Origin: Terrisporobacter mayombei
GTDB taxonomy: Bacteria > Bacillota > Clostridia > Peptostreptococcales > Peptostreptococcaceae
DNA: 64,000 nucleotides
Direction: 5' to 3'
Assembly: GCF_020748465.1 (NCBI RefSeq)
Contig: NZ_JAHZMP010000001.1
Span: 1,054,001-1,118,000 of the forward strand
Position 1 is the first letter of the stretch, and each line of letters opens with the position of its first letter. The notes beneath the pieces are model-generated. The model was not told the origin of the DNA, did not search any database, and saw only the letters and a list, made by a program, of their open reading frames with translations. A program made the position numbers and the translations under genes. Shown piece after piece: positions 18,758 through 27,045 of this stretch.

Positions 18758-19888
18758 TTATTTTATAAATTCTACAAAGACACTGTTCGATATTTCCCTA
18801 CCTTTTTGAGTTAATATCATGCCTTCATCACTAATTTTAATCAATTTCATTTTCTTCAATTTATTAATTTCTTTTTCATATACTTCTTTAAAATTAATAT
18901 TGTATTTTTCATTGAAATCCCTAAATTTTATGCCTTCATTCATTCTTAAGCCTAAAAATATACTTTCCTCTATTTTATCTTTAATACATAGTTTTTCTTC
19001 CCACTCTATAGGTTTTTTGAAACTATTTATTATATTTTCATATTTATTTAGTTCACTCAAGTTATTATATCTTGTTTCATTTAAAAATCCTGATGCTGAG
19101 GCACCTAATCCAAGGTAATTTTCACACTTCCAATATAAAATATTGTGCTTACATTCAAATCCTTCTTTTGAATAATTGGATATTTCATATTGATTATATC
19201 CATGTGATTTCAAGTAATTTATCGTATACTCATACATTTCAATATCTGTATCTTCATCTAATAATTTGAATTCTTTTCTTTCATACATCTTAAATAATTC
19301 TGTATCTTCTTCTAGTATTAAAGAATATGCAGAAATATGAGTAGGATTTAATTTTACAATTTTTTCTAGCGACTCCATCCAATCCTTTTTGCTTTGATTT
19401 GGAAGAGCATACATAAGATCAATATTTATATTTTTGAAACCAACTTCTTTTGCTTGATAGTAATTTTTTTCAAATTCTTCATATGTATGTATTCTTCCTA
19501 TATATTCTAAGTGATTATTTTGCACCGCTTGTAAACCAATACTTAACCTATTCACTCCACATTCTTTCATTGTTTTTAATTTATTTAAAGTTAATGTGCC
19601 AGGATTACATTCCATGGTTATTTCTGCATTATTTTTTATATTAAAATTATTTTTTATATTATCAAACAAAAACCTTATTTCTTCCTGATTTAATATACTC
19701 GGCGTCCCCCCTCCAATAAATATTGTATCAATCTCTTTTCCTCTTATTTCTTCTTCATAAAACTTCATTTCTCTTTGCAAAGCATTTAAATATTTTCTTT
19801 TTTCATCCAAGTTTAATTTGTATGAATTAAAATCACAATATTTGCACTTTGATATACAAAAAGGAATATGTACATATAATCCCAACAT
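18758..19888 (-). CDS. hemW: Heme chaperone HemW (radical SAM)
   Basis: HemN-like radical-SAM protein now viewed as a heme chaperone rather than a coproporphyrinogen oxidase. In 376 residues the cluster ligands are C11, C15 and C18 in FCISKCKYCDF; the following Phe replaces the fourth Cys of true HemN, which marks the HemW branch. GGGTPS lies at 60-65. In other Firmicutes it directly follows lepA; here the cap operon lies between the two. Confidence 0.94.
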   Translation of the reverse strand: MLGLYVHIPFCISKCKYCDFNSYKLNLDEKRKYLNALQREMKFYEEEIRGKEIDTIFIGGGTPSILNQEEIRFLFDNIKNNFNIKNNAEITMECNPGTLTLNKLKTMKECGVNRLSIGLQAVQNNHLEYIGRIHTYEEFEKNYYQAKEVGFKNINIDLMYALPNQSKKDWMESLEKIVKLNPTHISAYSLILEEDTELFKMYERKEFKLLDEDTDIEMYEYTINYLKSHGYNQYEISNYSKEGFECKHNILYWKCENYLGLGASASGFLNETRYNNLSELNKYENIINSFKKPIEWEEKLCIKDKIEESIFLGLRMNEGIKFRDFNEKYNINFKEVYEKEINKLKKMKLIKISDEGMILTQKGREISNSVFVEFIK

Positions 19889-19950
19889 TTCATCACCTCT
19901 TTTATTTTTAAGTATCTTTATATTATTACCATTACTTATTAAATTTAAAA

Positions 19951-19980
19951 AACCTCATTTATTTTCATAAATGAGGTTTA
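19951..19980 (-). terminator. Intrinsic terminator after capD
   Basis: Perfect 12-bp stem (AACCTCATTTAT / ATAAATGAGGTT) with a four-base loop and a T run on the minus strand, right behind the capD stop. Confidence 0.92.
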
Positions 19981-19984
19981 ATAT

Positions 19985-21592
19985 CTATTTATATTTAACT
20001 TGGTATTCTCCACGTCTTCTATAGTCTGCTCCACCAGTTATTCCTTTTGATTTATCTTTTATTATAGTTTGAATAGATCCATAAAAAACATTAGAATCAT
20101 AATAAGTTACTGAGTATCCTTTTGAGGCCATTTCATTAATAGTATTATCAGAAAGCTGTCTTTCTGTTAATATTTCCGTATTATTTCTAAATACAGTTCT
20201 AGGCTCATCTATAGATTCAGATATATTCTCACCAAACTTAAGGTGGTTTAATAACACTTCAGAAATAGCTTGAGGTATAACATTACCTCCTGGAGAAGCA
20301 ATCCCCATGATAAAATCTTTATCTTTTCTTATTATAGTTGGAGCTATAAATGTTCTCGATCTTTTTCCTGGTTTATAAGCATTTATAGAATTTGCATTTT
20401 TATTAAAGTGACCTACTGAATCATTTAAGAAAAATCCTCCTACCGTTACTTGAGAACCAAAAAAATCACCTAATGTATTTGTGCAAGAGACTACCATTCC
20501 ATCTTTATCAGTTACAACAAAAGCTGTAGTATCTTCACTTTCATCTTCAGTTATATCTTCAATATACTTTTTCTCATATAGTTTTTTTACATAATTATCA
20601 GTTACATATTTTTGAGAATCAACATTTTCAAAATTAGGATCTGCAATATGTGCCTTTCTATTAGTGTAAGCAATGTTTACTATTTGAGACATTTTTTCTA
20701 AATAATCCGCTTCATTGGTAGCAAATTTTTGAACATCAGCATATTCGGACATTTTCAATATTTGTAGTAACGTGGCACCACCAAATGGCGCTGGAGCTGT
20801 TACAACTTCATATCCATTAAATTTACCTGTTAACGGTTTTACAATTTCCGTTTTATAAGCAGATAGATCTTCTGATTTTAGTAAGCCACCTAGTGTTAAT
20901 TGTTGAGCAATCACTCCATTATAGAAAGCATTCGCTCCACCCTCTTGGATAGTTTTTAAAGTAGTTGCTAATTCCGGCTGAACTATGGTCGTTCCCTCAC
21001 TCTTTGGCTGACCATTTTCATCATAGAATGTAGTCAAACTATTCATATCTGAATATCCTTTAAAAATATCAAGTCTATTATATAGATTTGTATTCATTTC
21101 AAATCCATTTTCAGCATAATCAACAGATGGCTGTATAAGTTCTTTCATTTCTTTTGTACCATAAGTACTGTTTACTTCTTCCATACCCTTTACAAAACCA
21201 GGCACACCAATACCGCTAGTTTGAGTTGCAGAACTTATAGGAGCTGTTTCTCTGTAATTAAAGAATTTGAAATCATCATCTTTGGGTGAATAAACAAGCA
21301 TCGCTCCTCCTCCACCAATTCCTGAACCATAAGGTTCAACAACACCTAATACATATGATATTGCTACCGCTGCATCTGCAGCATTTCCTCCGTTTTTCAA
21401 AACGTCCATCCCAACCTTAACAGCTAAAGGATTAGACGAGCTTACTCCATACCCTTCTAGACCATCTCTTTTTAATACCTTATTCACACCTACAGTAAAC
21501 ATAGTCTGAATATTATCATAGAAAACTAAGCTTAAACCTAATGCAAGTGCTAACAGCACAGATGCAATTTGTTTCCATCTTGATTTTTTCAA
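19985..21592 (-). CDS. capD: CapD-type gamma-glutamyltranspeptidase
   Basis: Ntn-hydrolase of the gamma-glutamyltransferase superfamily. In Bacillus anthracis CapD cuts poly-gamma-glutamate and links it to peptidoglycan. The 535 residues have an N-terminal membrane anchor/signal (about 8-26), the domain opening YGVSSSNPLAVKVGMDVLKN, the predicted self-cleavage site with nucleophile T355 (EDTTAFVVTDKDG), and late motifs GKRSRTFIAPT and SPGGNVIPQ. These and the short C-terminus resemble CapD more than glutathione-degrading GGT, as judged from memory of the CapD sequence. The start is TTG at 21592, eight bases after AAGGAG. It follows capB, capC and a 44-aa ORF in one operon, which supports a polymer-release or anchoring role. 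Confidence 0.88.
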   Translation of the reverse strand: MKKSRWKQIASVLLALALGLSLVFYDNIQTMFTVGVNKVLKRDGLEGYGVSSSNPLAVKVGMDVLKNGGNAADAAVAISYVLGVVEPYGSGIGGGGAMLVYSPKDDDFKFFNYRETAPISSATQTSGIGVPGFVKGMEEVNSTYGTKEMKELIQPSVDYAENGFEMNTNLYNRLDIFKGYSDMNSLTTFYDENGQPKSEGTTIVQPELATTLKTIQEGGANAFYNGVIAQQLTLGGLLKSEDLSAYKTEIVKPLTGKFNGYEVVTAPAPFGGATLLQILKMSEYADVQKFATNEADYLEKMSQIVNIAYTNRKAHIADPNFENVDSQKYVTDNYVKKLYEKKYIEDITEDESEDTTAFVVTDKDGMVVSCTNTLGDFFGSQVTVGGFFLNDSVGHFNKNANSINAYKPGKRSRTFIAPTIIRKDKDFIMGIASPGGNVIPQAISEVLLNHLKFGENISESIDEPRTVFRNNTEILTERQLSDNTINEMASKGYSVTYYDSNVFYGSIQTIIKDKSKGITGGADYRRRGEYQVKYK

Positions 21593-21651
21593 TCCATTCT
21601 CTCCTTTTTGATATTAATTTTCGTTAGTGATAAAGATTAAATTATCCCCTT

Positions 21652-21786
21652 TTAGAATATAATATCCAAAAACATATAACTAAAGCATAAAATTAGTGAT
21701 AATATCAATAAATTAAAAAGTGTTATTTCTTTTCTATTTTTTATATAAATTTGGATTTTTTCCTTTAAAGTCAAACTTTTATCCAT
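21652..21786 (-). CDS. 44-aa single-pass membrane peptide, CapE/PgsE-like by position
   Basis: A short ORF starting MDKSLTLKEKIQIYIKNRKE, followed by a hydrophobic helix at about residues 21-44. The ATG at 21786 has AAGGAG eight bases upstream, inside the 12-base gap after capC. Size, a single membrane span and location between capC and capD match the small CapE/PgsE subunit (about 47-55 aa) of poly-gamma-glutamate synthases. Sequence likeness is too short to prove, so the role is inferred from context. Confidence 0.75.
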   Translation of the reverse strand: MDKSLTLKEKIQIYIKNRKEITLFNLLILSLILCFSYMFLDIIF

Positions 21787-21798
21787 ATTTCCATCTCC

Positions 21799-22248
21799 TT
21801 AAACTAATTGAGCTACATTTAAGATAACAAAAGCTGCAAAAGAAACACCTAAAGTACTTACCGTTGTAAGTTTTATGCCTTGCTTGTAGAAGCAGTTTGC
21901 GATTAAACCTGGTATAACTATTCCAACTCCCTCAAGCACTCCTAACGACATCCCCATAGACATATTTAGGCTGTCTAATGCAATTTTCAATAGCATACAT
22001 ACTAAAAGCATCGCTAAAAATCTTCTTCTTCCATACAATATAATAAATTTATTTAATCCAAATTCAACAATCATATAAGTTAATACACTTAACAGTAATA
22101 TAACTATCAAACTCTTAGGATTATTCATCGTAAGCGCTAAATATCCAGGAACCACAAGCCCTCCTGGGTTAATTCCGAATTTTTCTTGAAATAATAAGCT
22201 TAGAGTTAAACCTAAGATTATCGCTACATATAAATCTGTCAATACCAT
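21799..22248 (-). CDS. capC: Poly-gamma-glutamate synthase membrane subunit CapC/PgsC
   Basis: Integral membrane partner of the CapB/PgsB ligase in poly-gamma-glutamate synthesis and export. The 149 residues are almost entirely hydrophobic with four or five helices, and carry family-typical segments such as KFGINPGGLVVPGYLAL (about 23-39) and the late VVIPGLIANCFYKQGI-like turn. The ATG at 22248 follows AGGAGG. It starts 18 bases after the capB stop, so the two are cotranslated. Confidence 0.92.
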   Translation of the reverse strand: MVLTDLYVAIILGLTLSLLFQEKFGINPGGLVVPGYLALTMNNPKSLIVILLLSVLTYMIVEFGLNKFIILYGRRRFLAMLLVCMLLKIALDSLNMSMGMSLGVLEGVGIVIPGLIANCFYKQGIKLTTVSTLGVSFAAFVILNVAQLV

Positions 22249-22266
22249 TATAGCCTCCTAAATTTT

Positions 22267-23481
22267 CTAGATTACAGCTTTTTGCTTCTCACTATAATCA
22301 GTTATTGTTTCATCTTGACTCATACTTAAAAGTCTTTCTATAAATGGTTCACCCGTACCATGTATATTTCCTACACCATAAATTACTCTGTTTTTCATTA
22401 AAGGATTTATAACCTCTAATATTTCATCTGGTGTTGCATTTTCTAAATCAATATAATTTTTTACATTTGGCAACATTCCATTTTTAAATGCCGTAGCAAC
22501 AGGCTCAGTTACCTCCCCTATACCAACAAGTGTATGAGTTTTAATATTCGGAAACACATCTCTTACAAAAATTTCGGTTCTATCAACTCTATCTTGTCTA
22601 CAGTTCATAATAACTATTGGATCATCTGAATCATAGTCCATTTCACATATTTTTATCCAAATATTTAGTGTTGACTGTGGGTCATTTGCTGCAAATCCAT
22701 TTACAAAATGACAATTTAGAGATTCTTTTCCTATTTTAGTAACTCTCATTGCCCCTGGATCTGGATGAGCATTAAGCATCCCCCTCATACATACTTCTTT
22801 ATCTAAACCTAAAGCTTCTCCTACAGCTAGAGCTAAAGATGCATTATCAGGGAATACCATATAATCAAATTCAGATAAAAATTCACTACTTATTTTTGAA
22901 TTATCAGCTACTATTACCTTACTATTTCTCTCCTTAGCAACTTCTTTAAAGTAATCTAGATAAGGACTTGGTATAGTAATTAAGTATCCATTATATGGTA
23001 TAGTTGCTGCAAATGCTTGCGCTACTTCATTTAATGTTGGTCCTAATACATCCATATGATCTTCAAGTACATTAACTATTAAAACAATGTTAGCTTCCAA
23101 CATTCTAAATTGATATACCTTTTGATAGTCTGGGTTTACTGCCATACACTCACATACTAAAGCTTCTGCTCCTAAGTCTGCCGACTTCTGTAATACCTCT
23201 AATTGCTCACCTATGTTAGCACCTTGAGGTTTTCTTATTATAGGTTCTTCTTCATCTTTGAACCAGTAAATCATTCTAGCTTCTGTTCCAGTTGTTTTTC
23301 CTACTGTCTTATACCCTGCCTCAGTTAATATGCCAGTTATTAGCCTTGTGACAGTTGATTTTCCTCTTATCCCATTTATATTCACTCTTATTGGTATTTT
23401 TTTAACATTTCTCTTTTGAGCAAGTTGTTCTCTTATACCAAGTATAAGTAGAGTGACTATACACAATACTATAATAATAAT
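22267..23481 (-). CDS. capB: Poly-gamma-glutamate synthase catalytic subunit CapB/PgsB (probable ATT start)
   Basis: Mur-ligase-like amide ligase that polymerises glutamate through its gamma-carboxyl with ATP. It has an N-terminal membrane segment, P-loop NGIRGKSTVTRLITG, then PQGANIGEQ, ECMAVNPDYQ, NVLEDHMDVLGPT and MNCRQDRVDRTEIF, all as in PgsB. A TTG-led frame gives 399 residues from 23466, but the only ribosome site (GGGAGGG) sits 22 bases before that TTG. It is ideally spaced (about eight bases) before the first of three ATT codons at 23481, which restores the IIIVLC membrane start seen in PgsB. No ATG or GTG is available in frame. With the ATT start the product is 404 residues. Confidence 0.9.
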   Translation of the reverse strand: MIIIVLCIVTLLILGIREQLAQKRNVKKIPIRVNINGIRGKSTVTRLITGILTEAGYKTVGKTTGTEARMIYWFKDEEEPIIRKPQGANIGEQLEVLQKSADLGAEALVCECMAVNPDYQKVYQFRMLEANIVLIVNVLEDHMDVLGPTLNEVAQAFAATIPYNGYLITIPSPYLDYFKEVAKERNSKVIVADNSKISSEFLSEFDYMVFPDNASLALAVGEALGLDKEVCMRGMLNAHPDPGAMRVTKIGKESLNCHFVNGFAANDPQSTLNIWIKICEMDYDSDDPIVIMNCRQDRVDRTEIFVRDVFPNIKTHTLVGIGEVTEPVATAFKNGMLPNVKNYIDLENATPDEILEVINPLMKNRVIYGVGNIHGTGEPFIERLLSMSQDETITDYSEKQKAVI

Positions 23482-23486
23482 GGTTC

Positions 23487-23878
23487 ATCCCTCCCTAATT
23501 AATCGTCATTATATGATTGTTTTCATATACTAAGGTTTCATACAAAGTACATTTTTGTTTTACACAATAGTATAAAATTTAGATTATTATCATTTCTTGT
23601 CTAACAACTAGTCAATTATATCAAAAATTATCGAATTCTAAAAGTATTTATTTCAATTTCTTAATAATAAGTTTTATTCTTCAAATCGCCATTTACACAA
23701 TATTCCAAACTTTATACCCTAGTGTATAGTATTTTTAATTATATTTCAATAAATTACAAATATTAATTTGTTAAAATTTGTAAATTTCTACCATTCCATA
23801 GTCAAAATATAAAGTCAGTTAGTATATCCATTATATAAGATAGATAACTAACCACCTTTTCTTCTTTATTTATACAAT
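23487..23878 (-). other. Intergenic region between lepA and capB
   Basis: About 390 AT-rich bases without a credible ORF. It must hold the capB promoter; the best candidate is a weak TTGACT / GATAAT pair (23615-23586, 18-base spacer). A short dyad TATAC-N6-GTATA lies at 23713-23728. An imperfect hairpin just after lepA (about 23816-23855) has no U tract. No site here is convincing on its own. Confidence 0.5.
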
Positions 23879-25681
23879 TTATTCATCTAATTTAAGAACT
23901 GACATAAATGCCTTTTGTGGTACTTCCACGCTACCAATTTGTCTCATACGTTTCTTACCTTCTTTTTGTTTTTCAAGAAGTTTCTTCTTACGAGATATAT
24001 CTCCTCCGTAACATTTAGCAAGTACGTCTTTTCTAAGAGCACTTATTGTTTCTCTAGCTACTATTTTATTTCCAACAGCTGCTTGTATAGGAACAGCAAA
24101 TTGATGTCTTGGTATTTCATTTTTAAGTTTTTCACACATTGCCTTACCCCTCGAGTATGCTTTACTTTCATGAACGATAAAGCTAAGTGCATCAACTTGT
24201 TCTTTATTTATTAATATATCTAATTTTACAAGTTGAGAAGGAACATATCCCTTCATCTCATAATCTAGAGAGCCATATCCTCTGGTTCTAGATTTTAGTG
24301 CATCAAAGAAATCGTATACAACTTCATTTAGAGGTAAATCATAATGAAGCATAACTCTTTTCTCATCTATATATTCCATGTGTAACATTGTTCCACGTCT
24401 TTCTTGACATAGTTCCATAACTATACCAACAAAATCTTTTGGTGCTATGATATCAGCTTTTACTATTGGTTCTTCTATCATTCTTATTTCTGAAACCTCT
24501 GGTAAATTTGCAGGGTTTTGAACCATAACAACTTCTCCATCATTTTTAGTAACTCTATATATAACAGAAGGAGCTGTTGTAACTAAATTTAGATTAAATT
24601 CTCTTTCTAATCTCTCTTGTATTATTTCAAGATGTAATAATCCTAAGAATCCACATCTAAAACCAAATCCTAAGGCTGCAGAAGTTTCTGATTCAAACTC
24701 AAGCGCTGCATCATTAACTTGTAGTTTTTCTAAGCAATCTCTTACGTTTTCGTATTTTTCACCTTCGCCTGGATAAATACCACAATAAACCATTGGAGTT
24801 GCTTTTTTATATCCTTCTAAAGGTTCTTGTGTTTTATTGTTAGCATCAGTAATAGTGTCACCTACGTGACAACTTCTTATATCTTTTATACTTGCTGCAA
24901 TATATCCAACATCACCAGCAGATAAACTATCTAATTCTGTTGCACCTGGAGCCATAACTCCAACTTCTGTTACTTCGAATTTCTTCTTAGTATTCATCAT
25001 TTCTATAGTCATACCTTTTTTAACTTCACCTTCAAATACTCTAACATAGGCTACAACACCCTTATAAGCATCATAGTATGAATCAAATATTAAAGCTTTT
25101 AATGGTTTGTTTATATCTCCAGTAGGCGCTGGTACATTTGCAACTATATCTTCTAATACGTCTTGTATATTTAAACCACTTTTTGCTGATATTAATGGCG
25201 CTTCACTTGCATCAAGACCTATTATATCTTCAATTTCTTCTTTGACCTCGTCTGGTCTAGCACTTGGTAGGTCTATTTTATTTATTACTGGTAATATTTC
25301 TAAATCTTGATCTAGCGCTAAATATACATTCGCTAAAGTCTGTGCTTCCACTCCTTGAGCGGCATCTACTACAAGTAATGCCCCCTCACATGCTACTAAA
25401 CTTCTTGATACCTCATAGTTAAAGTCCACATGACCCGGAGTATCTATAAGATTTAAATAATATTCATTTCCGTCCTTAGCCTTATATATTAACCTTACAT
25501 TTTGCAGTTTGATAGTGATTCCTCTTTCTCTTTCTAAATCCATGTTATCTAATAACTGGCTTTTCATTTCTCTATCACTTACTAAACCTGTGTACTGTAT
25601 TAATCTATCAGCTAAGGTAGACTTACCATGATCTATATGCGCAATTATACTGAAATTTCTAGTTCTATTTTGTTTGTCCAC
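23879..25681 (-). CDS. lepA: Elongation factor 4 (LepA)
   Basis: Translational GTPase that binds ribosomes and aids assembly/back-translocation under stress. The 600 residues have the P-loop AHIDHGKST (14-22), DTPGH (80-84), NKID (134-137), EF-G-like domains, and the LepA-specific C-terminal domain ending [20 protein letters not shown]. It follows spoIIP and the 64-aa ORF, as in related genomes. Confidence 0.98.
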
Positions 25682-25765
25682 CTTTATTCCTCCTTAATAA
25701 GTTGTTATCATAGACTTTATTTTATAATATATCTGCTTTTATGTAAATAAGTAGTATATAACAAA

Positions 25766-25798
25766 AAAATAAGACTTATTTTTCAAGTCTTATTTTTT
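25766..25798 (-). terminator. Intrinsic terminator before lepA
   Basis: An 11-bp AAATAAGACTT / AAGTCTTATTT stem, with T runs in both directions. It ends the gpr-spoIIP-64-aa ORF transcript. Confidence 0.88.
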
Positions 25799-25864
25799 CT
25801 AATATTTTGGTTTATTTTCGAAATTTGTATTCTTTAATATCATATAAAAATTAAATGTTATAGT

Positions 25865-26059
25865 TTAAAATATATCCATTATATATTTTATAATATCATT
25901 TTTACTATCGTTGTCTAAGACCTCATTAATTCTATAATCTATTATTAGTATGCTACTAGTAGTAATTACTAGCATCATAAACATAAATATCATTCTACAA
26001 ATTGTTTTATATTTCTTTTTAGAATACTTTTCTTTTTTAGATTTTTCTAAACGGCTCAT
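25865..26059 (-). CDS. Small membrane protein, 64 aa, downstream of spoIIP
   Basis: Unrecognised. A basic N-terminus (MSRLEKSKKEKYSKKKYK) is followed by one membrane helix (about 20-41) and a short polar tail. It starts 14 bases after the spoIIP stop and ends before a terminator, so it is in the gpr-spoIIP transcript. A role in sporulation is plausible only from its place. Confidence 0.65.
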   Translation of the reverse strand: MSRLEKSKKEKYSKKKYKTICRMIFMFMMLVITTSSILIIDYRINEVLDNDSKNDIIKYIMDIF

Positions 26060-26073
26060 AATTTTTACCCTAA

Positions 26074-27045
26074 TTATTTTATATCAGAATAATACTCATC
26101 GAGTATTTCTGCTAAATATTTGCATGTAGCCTGAGCTTCTTTTGTACTTGTTGCATTATTACCTATTTCTATTAATAATCCATTGTCTGCCATATATTGA
26201 TTAAATCTACCATATTGTTTTGGAACTACTGGAGAAACTAATCCTGGATATTTCTTTTCAGCTAAAGCTGTAATTTCTTCTGCCTGTTTTTTTAATTCTC
26301 CCACATTTTGATTTCTTTGACCAACTACCAAGAAAAACTTTGCAACAGTTTCTCCATTTATTTTAGTTGTATATTTATCGTGTACTGCCTTTTTCGCCTG
26401 TGCAGTACTTACACTTTGCCCATCTCTATGTAAATCTATACTTACTTTAATAGAATTATACTTAGATAGAATAGACTTCATTGTCTTAGCACTCGTTGCA
26501 TAAGCATCGTTGTAAGACAAGTCATTATACTTAGTAGTATGAACTACACCCCATCCCTTTTCTGACAACTCTGTAGATAAAATACTTCCTACAGACATAA
26601 CTGAATGTTCTATATCTGTTGAATGATAGTTATTCTTTGGTGAATCAGAATAAGTTTCACTACTATGAGTATGATAGATAAGCATTTGTGGCTTGTCCTT
26701 TGTTACCCTTATATCATTAGTATAATTTGAATCAATAATATTACTAGTTTCTTTTGATTCTTTCGTCTCTTTTTGTTCTGGCTTATTTTCTTCACCAACG
26801 TAAACATTAACATATTCTTTGCCATCTATATTATTTGTATTGCTTTTTATATTATCTGTAGATTTTGAGTTATCCTCATCTTCTTTGTTATCCTTATCTT
26901 CTTTGTCTATAACTTTTACTTCAGGATAAGATGACTTCACCAAATATTTTAATATATCTTCTTTATCTAATGCTTGAGAAATAGTAGGCAAAATACAAAC
27001 TATTAAAAATCCAATTTTTATAGCTTTTATTTTATTTTTAATCAT
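26074..27045 (-). CDS. spoIIP: Stage II sporulation protein P
   Basis: Amidase/endopeptidase of the DMP engulfment machine, acting on peptidoglycan outside the membrane. The 323 residues have a signal anchor (about 8-25), a low-complexity acidic linker (about 45-110), and the SpoIIP catalytic domain with H125-x-H127 and E130 (YHTHSSETYS) and DLHRDG (204-209). Shorter than the Bacillus protein mainly in the N-terminal part. It follows gpr, the conserved pair. Confidence 0.95.
   Translation of the reverse strand: MIKNKIKAIKIGFLIVCILPTISQALDKEDILKYLVKSSYPEVKVIDKEDKDNKEDEDNSKSTDNIKSNTNNIDGKEYVNVYVGEENKPEQKETKESKETSNIIDSNYTNDIRVTKDKPQMLIYHTHSSETYSDSPKNNYHSTDIEHSVMSVGSILSTELSEKGWGVVHTTKYNDLSYNDAYATSAKTMKSILSKYNSIKVSIDLHRDGQSVSTAQAKKAVHDKYTTKINGETVAKFFLVVGQRNQNVGELKKQAEEITALAEKKYPGLVSPVVPKQYGRFNQYMADNGLLIEIGNNATSTKEAQATCKYLAEILDEYYSDIK

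Follow-up and report, generated by a model that had tools for sequence, protein, structure and literature searches.

Does a poly-gamma-glutamate operon need more of CapA than its membrane anchor? The question is raised by a locus of Terrisporobacter mayombei, found in a stretch of 64,000 nucleotides (hereafter the window; NCBI RefSeq assembly GCF_020748465.1, contig NZ_JAHZMP010000001.1, positions 1,054,001 to 1,118,000 of the forward strand). Between lepA and hemW, the minus strand carries in order capB, capC, an open reading frame (ORF) of 44 amino acids and a gene for a CapD-type transpeptidase, followed by a terminator-like hairpin; all four genes and the closing hairpin with its T-tract were found where the initial annotation had placed them (Table 1). 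This annotation called the operon CapA-less, which is right for the outer domain of CapA (PF09587). However, the 44-amino-acid ORF, regarded there as an additional membrane ORF, matches the N-terminal anchor of CapA and occupies the capA slot, so that the unusual subunit set proposed earlier is borne out in the form of a CapB/CapC/CapD operon with the CapA anchor only. On balance, we consider it probable that CapB, CapC and the anchor form a poly-gamma-glutamate synthase without the reported epimerase half of CapA, which would give an L-rich polymer that CapD attaches or trims.

The short gene resembles the N-terminal anchor of CapA

The slot after capC holds capA in two genomes of the same genus (G066 and G067), in the second operon of Intestinibacter bartlettii, in genome G047, and in 15 Bacillaceae/Paenibacillaceae loci. 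Intact operonic CapA is 391-436 amino acids long. A basic stretch on the cytoplasmic side and then a membrane segment make up its first ~40 residues, and in the four full-length operonic proteins scanned the PF09587 domain starts at residues 61-67, beyond the end of the short ORFs. The 44-amino-acid ORF corresponds to residues 1 to ~40 of operonic CapA. Local alignments of the short ORFs with CapA begin at or near residue 1 of both, and in each of 18 such comparisons the alignment score was reached by 0-2 of 1000 shuffles that kept the composition.

A profile based solely on the N-termini of 10 operonic CapAs, short ORFs excluded, was searched against 5,729 ORFs, some of them from overlapping loci; the figures given here refer to the best 70 matches listed. 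Four headless ORFs, i.e., short ORFs with the anchor and no outer domain, were recovered with E values of 1.9e-11 (G069), 6e-11 (window), 7.1e-10 (G028), and 8.3e-7 (G070), ranking below the full operonic CapAs. The next ORF was a non-operonic CapA-like gene with an E value of 0.072, and the remaining ORFs stood at or above that value. Eight loci held out of the profile (L009, L010, L013, L016, and L019-L022) were recovered as positives. When the window was searched alone, the 44-amino-acid ORF reached 3.2e-12 among 307 ORFs, with the runner-up at 0.11. According to a primer in PMC6029982, translated here, pgsA of B. subtilis begins with M-K-K-E-L-S-F-H, which resembles the motif in the window. 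In locus L012 (9634-12598; Peribacillus frigoritolerans record), capA and capD are each split into two ORFs; this locus contributed neither to the profile nor to the trees, but its ORFs formed part of the searched set.

Judged by sequence, the short protein has the N-terminal cytoplasmic helix and membrane anchor of an operonic CapA and lacks the metallophosphatase-fold outer domain, which makes it a relative of the anchor and not a member of PF09587. A Pfam scan found no PF09587 in the four operon genes. The distance from the stop codon of the short gene to the start of capD is 57-59 nucleotides in the four genomes read, so that no remnant of the CapA outer domain is left there; readthrough or fusion giving a longer CapA was likewise excluded for the window, where 59 nucleotides leave no room for it.

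Conservation of the short gene

The alternative that survives best, although we regard it as unlikely, is that the ORF is a non-functional relic of a deleted capA and that the operon runs as CapB-CapC alone or is decaying. It draws on the polymer obtained with pgsBC alone in B. subtilis (PMC6029982) and on decay nearby, since I. bartlettii is without capC and anchor at the same site and three of its congeners have capB fragments only. A relic, however, would hardly be expected to keep a constant length of 43-44 amino acids, its own ribosome-binding site and a conserved head in two genera whose CapB proteins are only ~70% identical, nor would a decaying operon be expected to keep capB, capC and capD intact, with ratios of nonsynonymous to synonymous substitution (dN/dS) of ~0.05-0.16 in three genomes.

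The length of 43-44 amino acids was found in Terrisporobacter and in the Paraclostridium-like genome G028, whose short ORF encodes the same sequence as a protein of Paraclostridium ghonii, as well as in 27 of the 40 proteins returned by two database searches, one being a T. mayombei protein 89% identical to that of the window. Among 26 distinct 44-mers, mean identity was 87% in the head (residues 5-22) and 63% in the tail (residues 23-44). The synonymous excess in the 44-codon gene is weak and in the right direction (Fisher p of 0.034, 0.24, and 0.017 for three pairs). Taken together, the short gene looks maintained rather than left over. Six metagenomic proteins of 44 amino acids (P0031-P0033 and P0035-P0037), 55-59% identical to that of the window, keep the head while the membrane tail drifts; they possibly represent a further headless lineage.

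CapE-like proteins and CapA-like genes elsewhere

A second alternative, which we find still harder to accept, takes the 44-amino-acid protein as an accessory of CapE/PgsE type and obtains CapA from a distant gene, leaving an ordinary system with a scattered capA. The size is close to that of CapE (47 amino acids in the literature). Small ORFs presumed to be CapE, a name that rests on place and size, follow capD in 15 of 15 Bacillaceae/Paenibacillaceae loci (L008-L022) and have the membrane segment first and the charged tail second. The 44-amino-acid ORF shows the reverse layout, a basic head followed by the membrane segment, and stands before capD. One presumed CapE ORF occurred among the best 70 anchor-profile matches listed (E = 3.8), and the 44-amino-acid ORF had no match in Pfam or NCBIfam even at E 10. 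Based on layout, operon place and the profile search, the ORF does not appear to be a CapE, and this identity was rejected.

As for the distant gene, it had been suggested that capA lies elsewhere, and three full CapA-like genes with PF09587 are indeed present in the genome (a tandem pair ~400 kb away and one on another contig, besides a fourth, weaker match of 41 bits); however, all three are without the N-terminal motif of operonic CapA. Among 71 family genomes, 47 have CapA-like matches at E <= 1e-30, and 39 of these 47 have no capB over the cut-off. Counterparts of the first distant gene (C111:657611) occur in G069, in G070, whose CapA-like genes are all of this type, and in G068, where no capB exceeds the cut-off. 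The CapA tree comprised 30 sequences, namely 27 of the 63 family matches and three Bacillaceae/Paenibacillaceae rows (L126 and L134 had no row); in it, none of the three genes belongs to the group containing the operonic CapAs (branch 99; operonic rows alone 72, not starred). A dedicated capA partner elsewhere was therefore rejected, since a congener without capB also has the first gene and the three full genes all stand outside the operonic group; by their sequences, the distant CapA-like genes do not look like partners reserved for this operon.

Gene identities and expression signals of the operon

The likeness of CapB and CapC, on which the initial annotation had relied, holds in profile searches. 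CapB scored 516.5 bits with TIGR04012 (cut-off 222.7), an equivalog model for poly-gamma-glutamate synthesis, and CapC scored 122.9 bits with the equivalog TIGR04011 (cut-off 96.45) and 125.5 bits with PF14102, while no relatives of either with solved structures were found by sequence. The transpeptidase scored 367 bits with PF01019, and its nearest solved relative is CapD (3g9k; 289 bits for the large chain and 137 bits for the small chain), other gamma-glutamyl transpeptidases (GGTs) reaching at most 250 bits with the large and at most 78 bits with the small chain. The start of the CapD small chain aligns with residue 355, a threonine. With the GGT fold, a threonine at the predicted small-chain start and a closer relationship to CapD than to other GGTs, the enzyme is probably of CapD type. 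A product other than a poly-gamma-glutamate capsule, such as short gamma-glutamyl compounds that the GGT would trim, is very improbable: the polymer is a prediction, CapB is a member of the Mur ligase superfamily (PF08245, with weak FolC and MurC matches) and GGTs can act on small substrates, but CapB and CapC both exceed equivalog cut-offs for poly-gamma-glutamate and the GGT is nearest to CapD.

A clear ribosome-binding site precedes capC, the 44-amino-acid gene and the transpeptidase gene. In the headless lineage at the lepA-hemW site, capB is without a canonical start codon in the right place, and an in-frame stop codon lies two codons before an AUU; in G069, the first ATG, GTG or TTG is a GTG directly ahead of the P-loop. 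The AUU and the motif GGAGGG seven nucleotides upstream are conserved in all seven genomes compared (23479-23494 in the window; L054, L055, L056, L061, L062, and L063), and capB likely starts at this AUU. AUU start codons are rare, infC being an example. An Rfam scan of 19000-26500 gave no matches and hence no known conserved RNA element upstream of capB, and promoter-like matches between 19600 and 24000 were no more frequent than expected by chance (30, against 25.4 +/- 5.7 in shuffles).

Table 1. Features of the poly-gamma-glutamate locus and related capB remnants (window positions unless a locus is named).
Feature	Position	Strand	Basis or remark
capB/pgsB, ATP-dependent glutamate ligase, P-loop GIRGKS	22267..23481	-	TIGR04012
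capB, ORF from canonical start (TTG)	22267-23466	-	likely true start AUU at 23481-23479
Ribosome-binding site GGAGGG, 7 nucleotides ahead of capB AUU	23489..23494	-	sequence; kept in 7/7 genomes
capC/pgsC, polytopic membrane subunit	21799..22248	-	TIGR04011, PF14102
Putative headless CapA, 44 amino acids: basic cytoplasmic helix and one membrane segment, own ribosome-binding site	21652..21786	-	
CapD-type gamma-glutamyl transpeptidase, N-terminal membrane segment, predicted autocleavage before Thr355	19985..21592	-	PF01019
Terminator-like hairpin, 13 pairs, loop of 4, T-tract	19950..19979	both	
lepA-capB spacer, presumed promoter region	23495..23878		
lepA, upstream flank of exchange site	23879..25681	-	
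hemW, downstream flank of exchange site	18758..19888	-	TIGR00539, 337 bits
capB remnant, I. bartlettii congener	L061 9649-10338		
capB remnant, I. bartlettii congener	L062 2223-2921		
capB remnant, I. bartlettii congener	L063 9206-9844		

Origin of the operon and exchange at the lepA-hemW site

A capB above the cut-off was found in 8 of 71 family genomes and in 2 of 391 genomes of a class sample, i.e., the window's own genome and G444. Within the genus, the site between lepA and hemW holds the headless operon in three genomes (window, G069, and G070), a full capB-capC-capA-capD operon in two (G066 and G067), and no operon in G068, where the gap is 211 bp; the CapB of the full type is only 54% identical to that of the headless type. 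In the tree of concatenated CapB, CapC and CapD, the headless operons and a capB-capD pair of I. bartlettii form one clade (100/99), and midpoint rooting places full-CapA operons on both sides of this clade. In the simplest case, a full CapA would have lost its outer domain a single time. CapC alone also recovers the clade at 100/99. Of the 15 Bacillaceae/Paenibacillaceae loci, between 3 and 6 entered the trees, and the flank trees were made without G016 and the other family genomes.

The flanking genes tell a different history from the operon. Trees of HemW (100/100), LepA (95/97), HrcA (93/89, not starred), and HemW with HrcA (100/99) group the window with G066/G067. Contrary to the flanks, the CapB tree groups it with G069/G070 (99/97). 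The approximately unbiased (AU) test rejected the flank grouping when it was imposed on CapB (p 2e-129), and it also rejected the CapB grouping when imposed on HemW (p 3e-4). This conflict shows an exchange of headless and full-CapA operons in place, at one chromosomal site. DNA similarity between the window and G066 at the site amounts to ~20 bp at the lepA stop and ~39 bp at the hemW start, besides weakly similar coding parts. Regarding direction, it is simplest to assume that the operon was replaced in the G066/G067 line, since I. bartlettii has a headless-lineage capB at the same site.

The operon had earlier been described as an insertion into a normally contiguous lepA-hemW block. In a broad sense, insertion is a fair description of the site, but the conflicting trees indicate that two types of operon were exchanged there, and contiguity is not the rule in this family, as 12 of the 66 measurable gaps among 71 family genomes are under 250 bp (the gap was unmeasurable in five). 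In many other family genomes, the gap contains an amino-acid permease (27 ORFs), a tRNA nucleotidyltransferase-like protein (26) or a nitroreductase (12), as the ORF clusters were named by Pfam from one representative each; in this family, the site is thus variable and not a locked block. Loci L067-L114 display this variable gap across the family, also with a gene for a GHKL-domain protein.

At the site, I. bartlettii (L056 7582-10405) has a headless-lineage capB and a capD 31 bp apart, on long branches and without capC and anchor, and it also possesses a complete capBCAD operon elsewhere (L057); three of its congeners keep only ~210-230 amino acids of capB between lepA and hemW. In G047, a broken second capB piece (L058 9369-9518) lies directly upstream of an intact capBCA-x-D operon, in which an extra ORF of 313 amino acids stands between capA and capD. 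The window also contains an ORF of 64 amino acids (25865-26059, minus strand) between spoIIP and lepA, with counterparts in the same position in G066, G067, G068, and G070 and a longer form in Intestinibacter; it had no match in NCBIfam.

A probable synthase without the epimerase half of CapA

According to the literature, CapB performs ATP-dependent glutamate ligation and CapC is its membrane partner. PgsA was stated to epimerise L-Glu to D-Glu within the growing chain (PMC7168211, citing another work). In B. subtilis, the D/L ratio of the polymer was 5/95 with pgsBC in the absence of pgsA and 75/25 with pgsA (PMC6029982); Sawada et al. obtained polymer with pgsBC alone, and PMC6029982 summarises disagreeing reports on the need for PgsA/CapA in poly-gamma-glutamate synthesis. 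The epimerase report, the L-rich product of pgsBC and the missing outer domain lead to the prediction of an L-rich polymer for the window operon.

A link between CapA and epimerisation is also indicated by MslH, a peptide epimerase. The CapA outer domain matches its model NF038314 with 68-70 bits, far below the cut-off of 700, and its structure (PDB 8gq9) with 56 bits. Residues Asn87, His88, Asp91, His259, and His295 of MslH (numbering done here) align with identical residues of CapA, while Asp11 and Glu44 fall outside the alignment compared; MslH mutants of the five aligned residues had lost or diminished activity (PMC10406935).

We infer that CapB, CapC and the anchor would assemble as a synthase in which the anchor is a working subunit, retained so that CapB-CapC can assemble or be active. 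Without the outer domain, the L-to-D epimerisation of the glutamate chain would be lost, the product would be L-rich poly-gamma-glutamate, and the CapD-type enzyme would then attach the chains to the wall or trim them, as in other species.

Several points weigh against this explanation. One residue of MslH, His261, has no conserved counterpart in CapA. The three distant CapA-like genes retain the residues aligned with the catalytic ones of MslH and, by this likeness, could epimerise in trans, and D-glutamate could enter as a free monomer. By analogy with the B. subtilis experiment, polymer from pgsBC alone might mean that the anchor is dispensable. The selection test on 44 codons has little power, one of three pairs being non-significant; the headless clade stands at 91/92 with CapD alone, and CapB alone leaves the fork open. 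Lastly, the assembly (4.16 Mb, with the window on a contig of 1.3 Mb) consists of 325 contigs with 7.33% reported contamination.

A bolder proposal, which we put forward tentatively, is that CapA consists of two separable machines, an anchor of ~40 residues, which would be the actual subunit of the synthase, and an outer epimerase, which would determine the handedness of the capsule. The headless form of Terrisporobacter and Paraclostridium would then build an all-L polymer, and sister species would change from all-L to D-containing capsules, or back, through exchange of the whole operon at lepA-hemW.

Comparison with known systems

That a natural CapA is reduced to its anchor and keeps a constant length across two genera suggests that the two roles of CapA can be separated, and the headless and full operons in near-identical chromosomal settings offer a ready-made pair for comparison. 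If the polymer is L-rich, this anaerobe would provide homochiral L-poly-gamma-glutamate from a natural source, and the locus would exemplify capsule-type switching of a non-polysaccharide capsule via operon exchange at a fixed site.

Compared with the capBCAD/pgsBCA operons of Bacillaceae, G066/G067 and Intestinibacter, the window operon has the same CapB, CapC and CapD families in the same order, with the 44-amino-acid gene in the capA slot retaining the N-terminal helix and anchor of CapA but not its PF09587 domain. The window, G069 and G028 showed no small ORF behind capD of the kind present in Bacillaceae/Paenibacillaceae operons, and in G070 this position holds a single ORF of 35 amino acids, which is not membrane-like. 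CapE/PgsE is likewise a small single-pass membrane protein of poly-gamma-glutamate operons, but it differs in layout and operon place, and the short ORF has no significant similarity to the presumed CapE ORFs. In G444 (L144 6585-9262), CapB and CapC also occur without an adjoining CapA; capC is followed there by a 'poly-gamma-glutamate system protein' of 365 amino acids (TIGR04332, 349 bits) in place of a short anchor, and G444 was rejected as a headless case.

The engineered B. subtilis with pgsBC and no pgsA (PMC6029982) resembles the window in having no outer domain of PgsA, and its product was L-rich. However, that strain is artificial and lacks the whole pgsA, whereas the window operon keeps the anchor naturally. 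MslH, the lasso-peptide tryptophan epimerase of the CapA family, is a homologue of the very part that the headless form has lost, but its substrate is a ribosomal peptide and the window gene has nothing of this outer domain.

A published virulence-factor table already lists both capB and capC in Terrisporobacter type strains, namely those of T. mayombei, T. petrolearius and T. glycolicus (PMC10564238). The open-licence literature searched held nothing further on Terrisporobacter and polyglutamate, and no naturally headless CapA or in-place exchange of a poly-gamma-glutamate operon was found in it, which is not proof of absence. The operon thus belongs to a class that is already known, while its subunit set and its exchange in place appear to be new variants.

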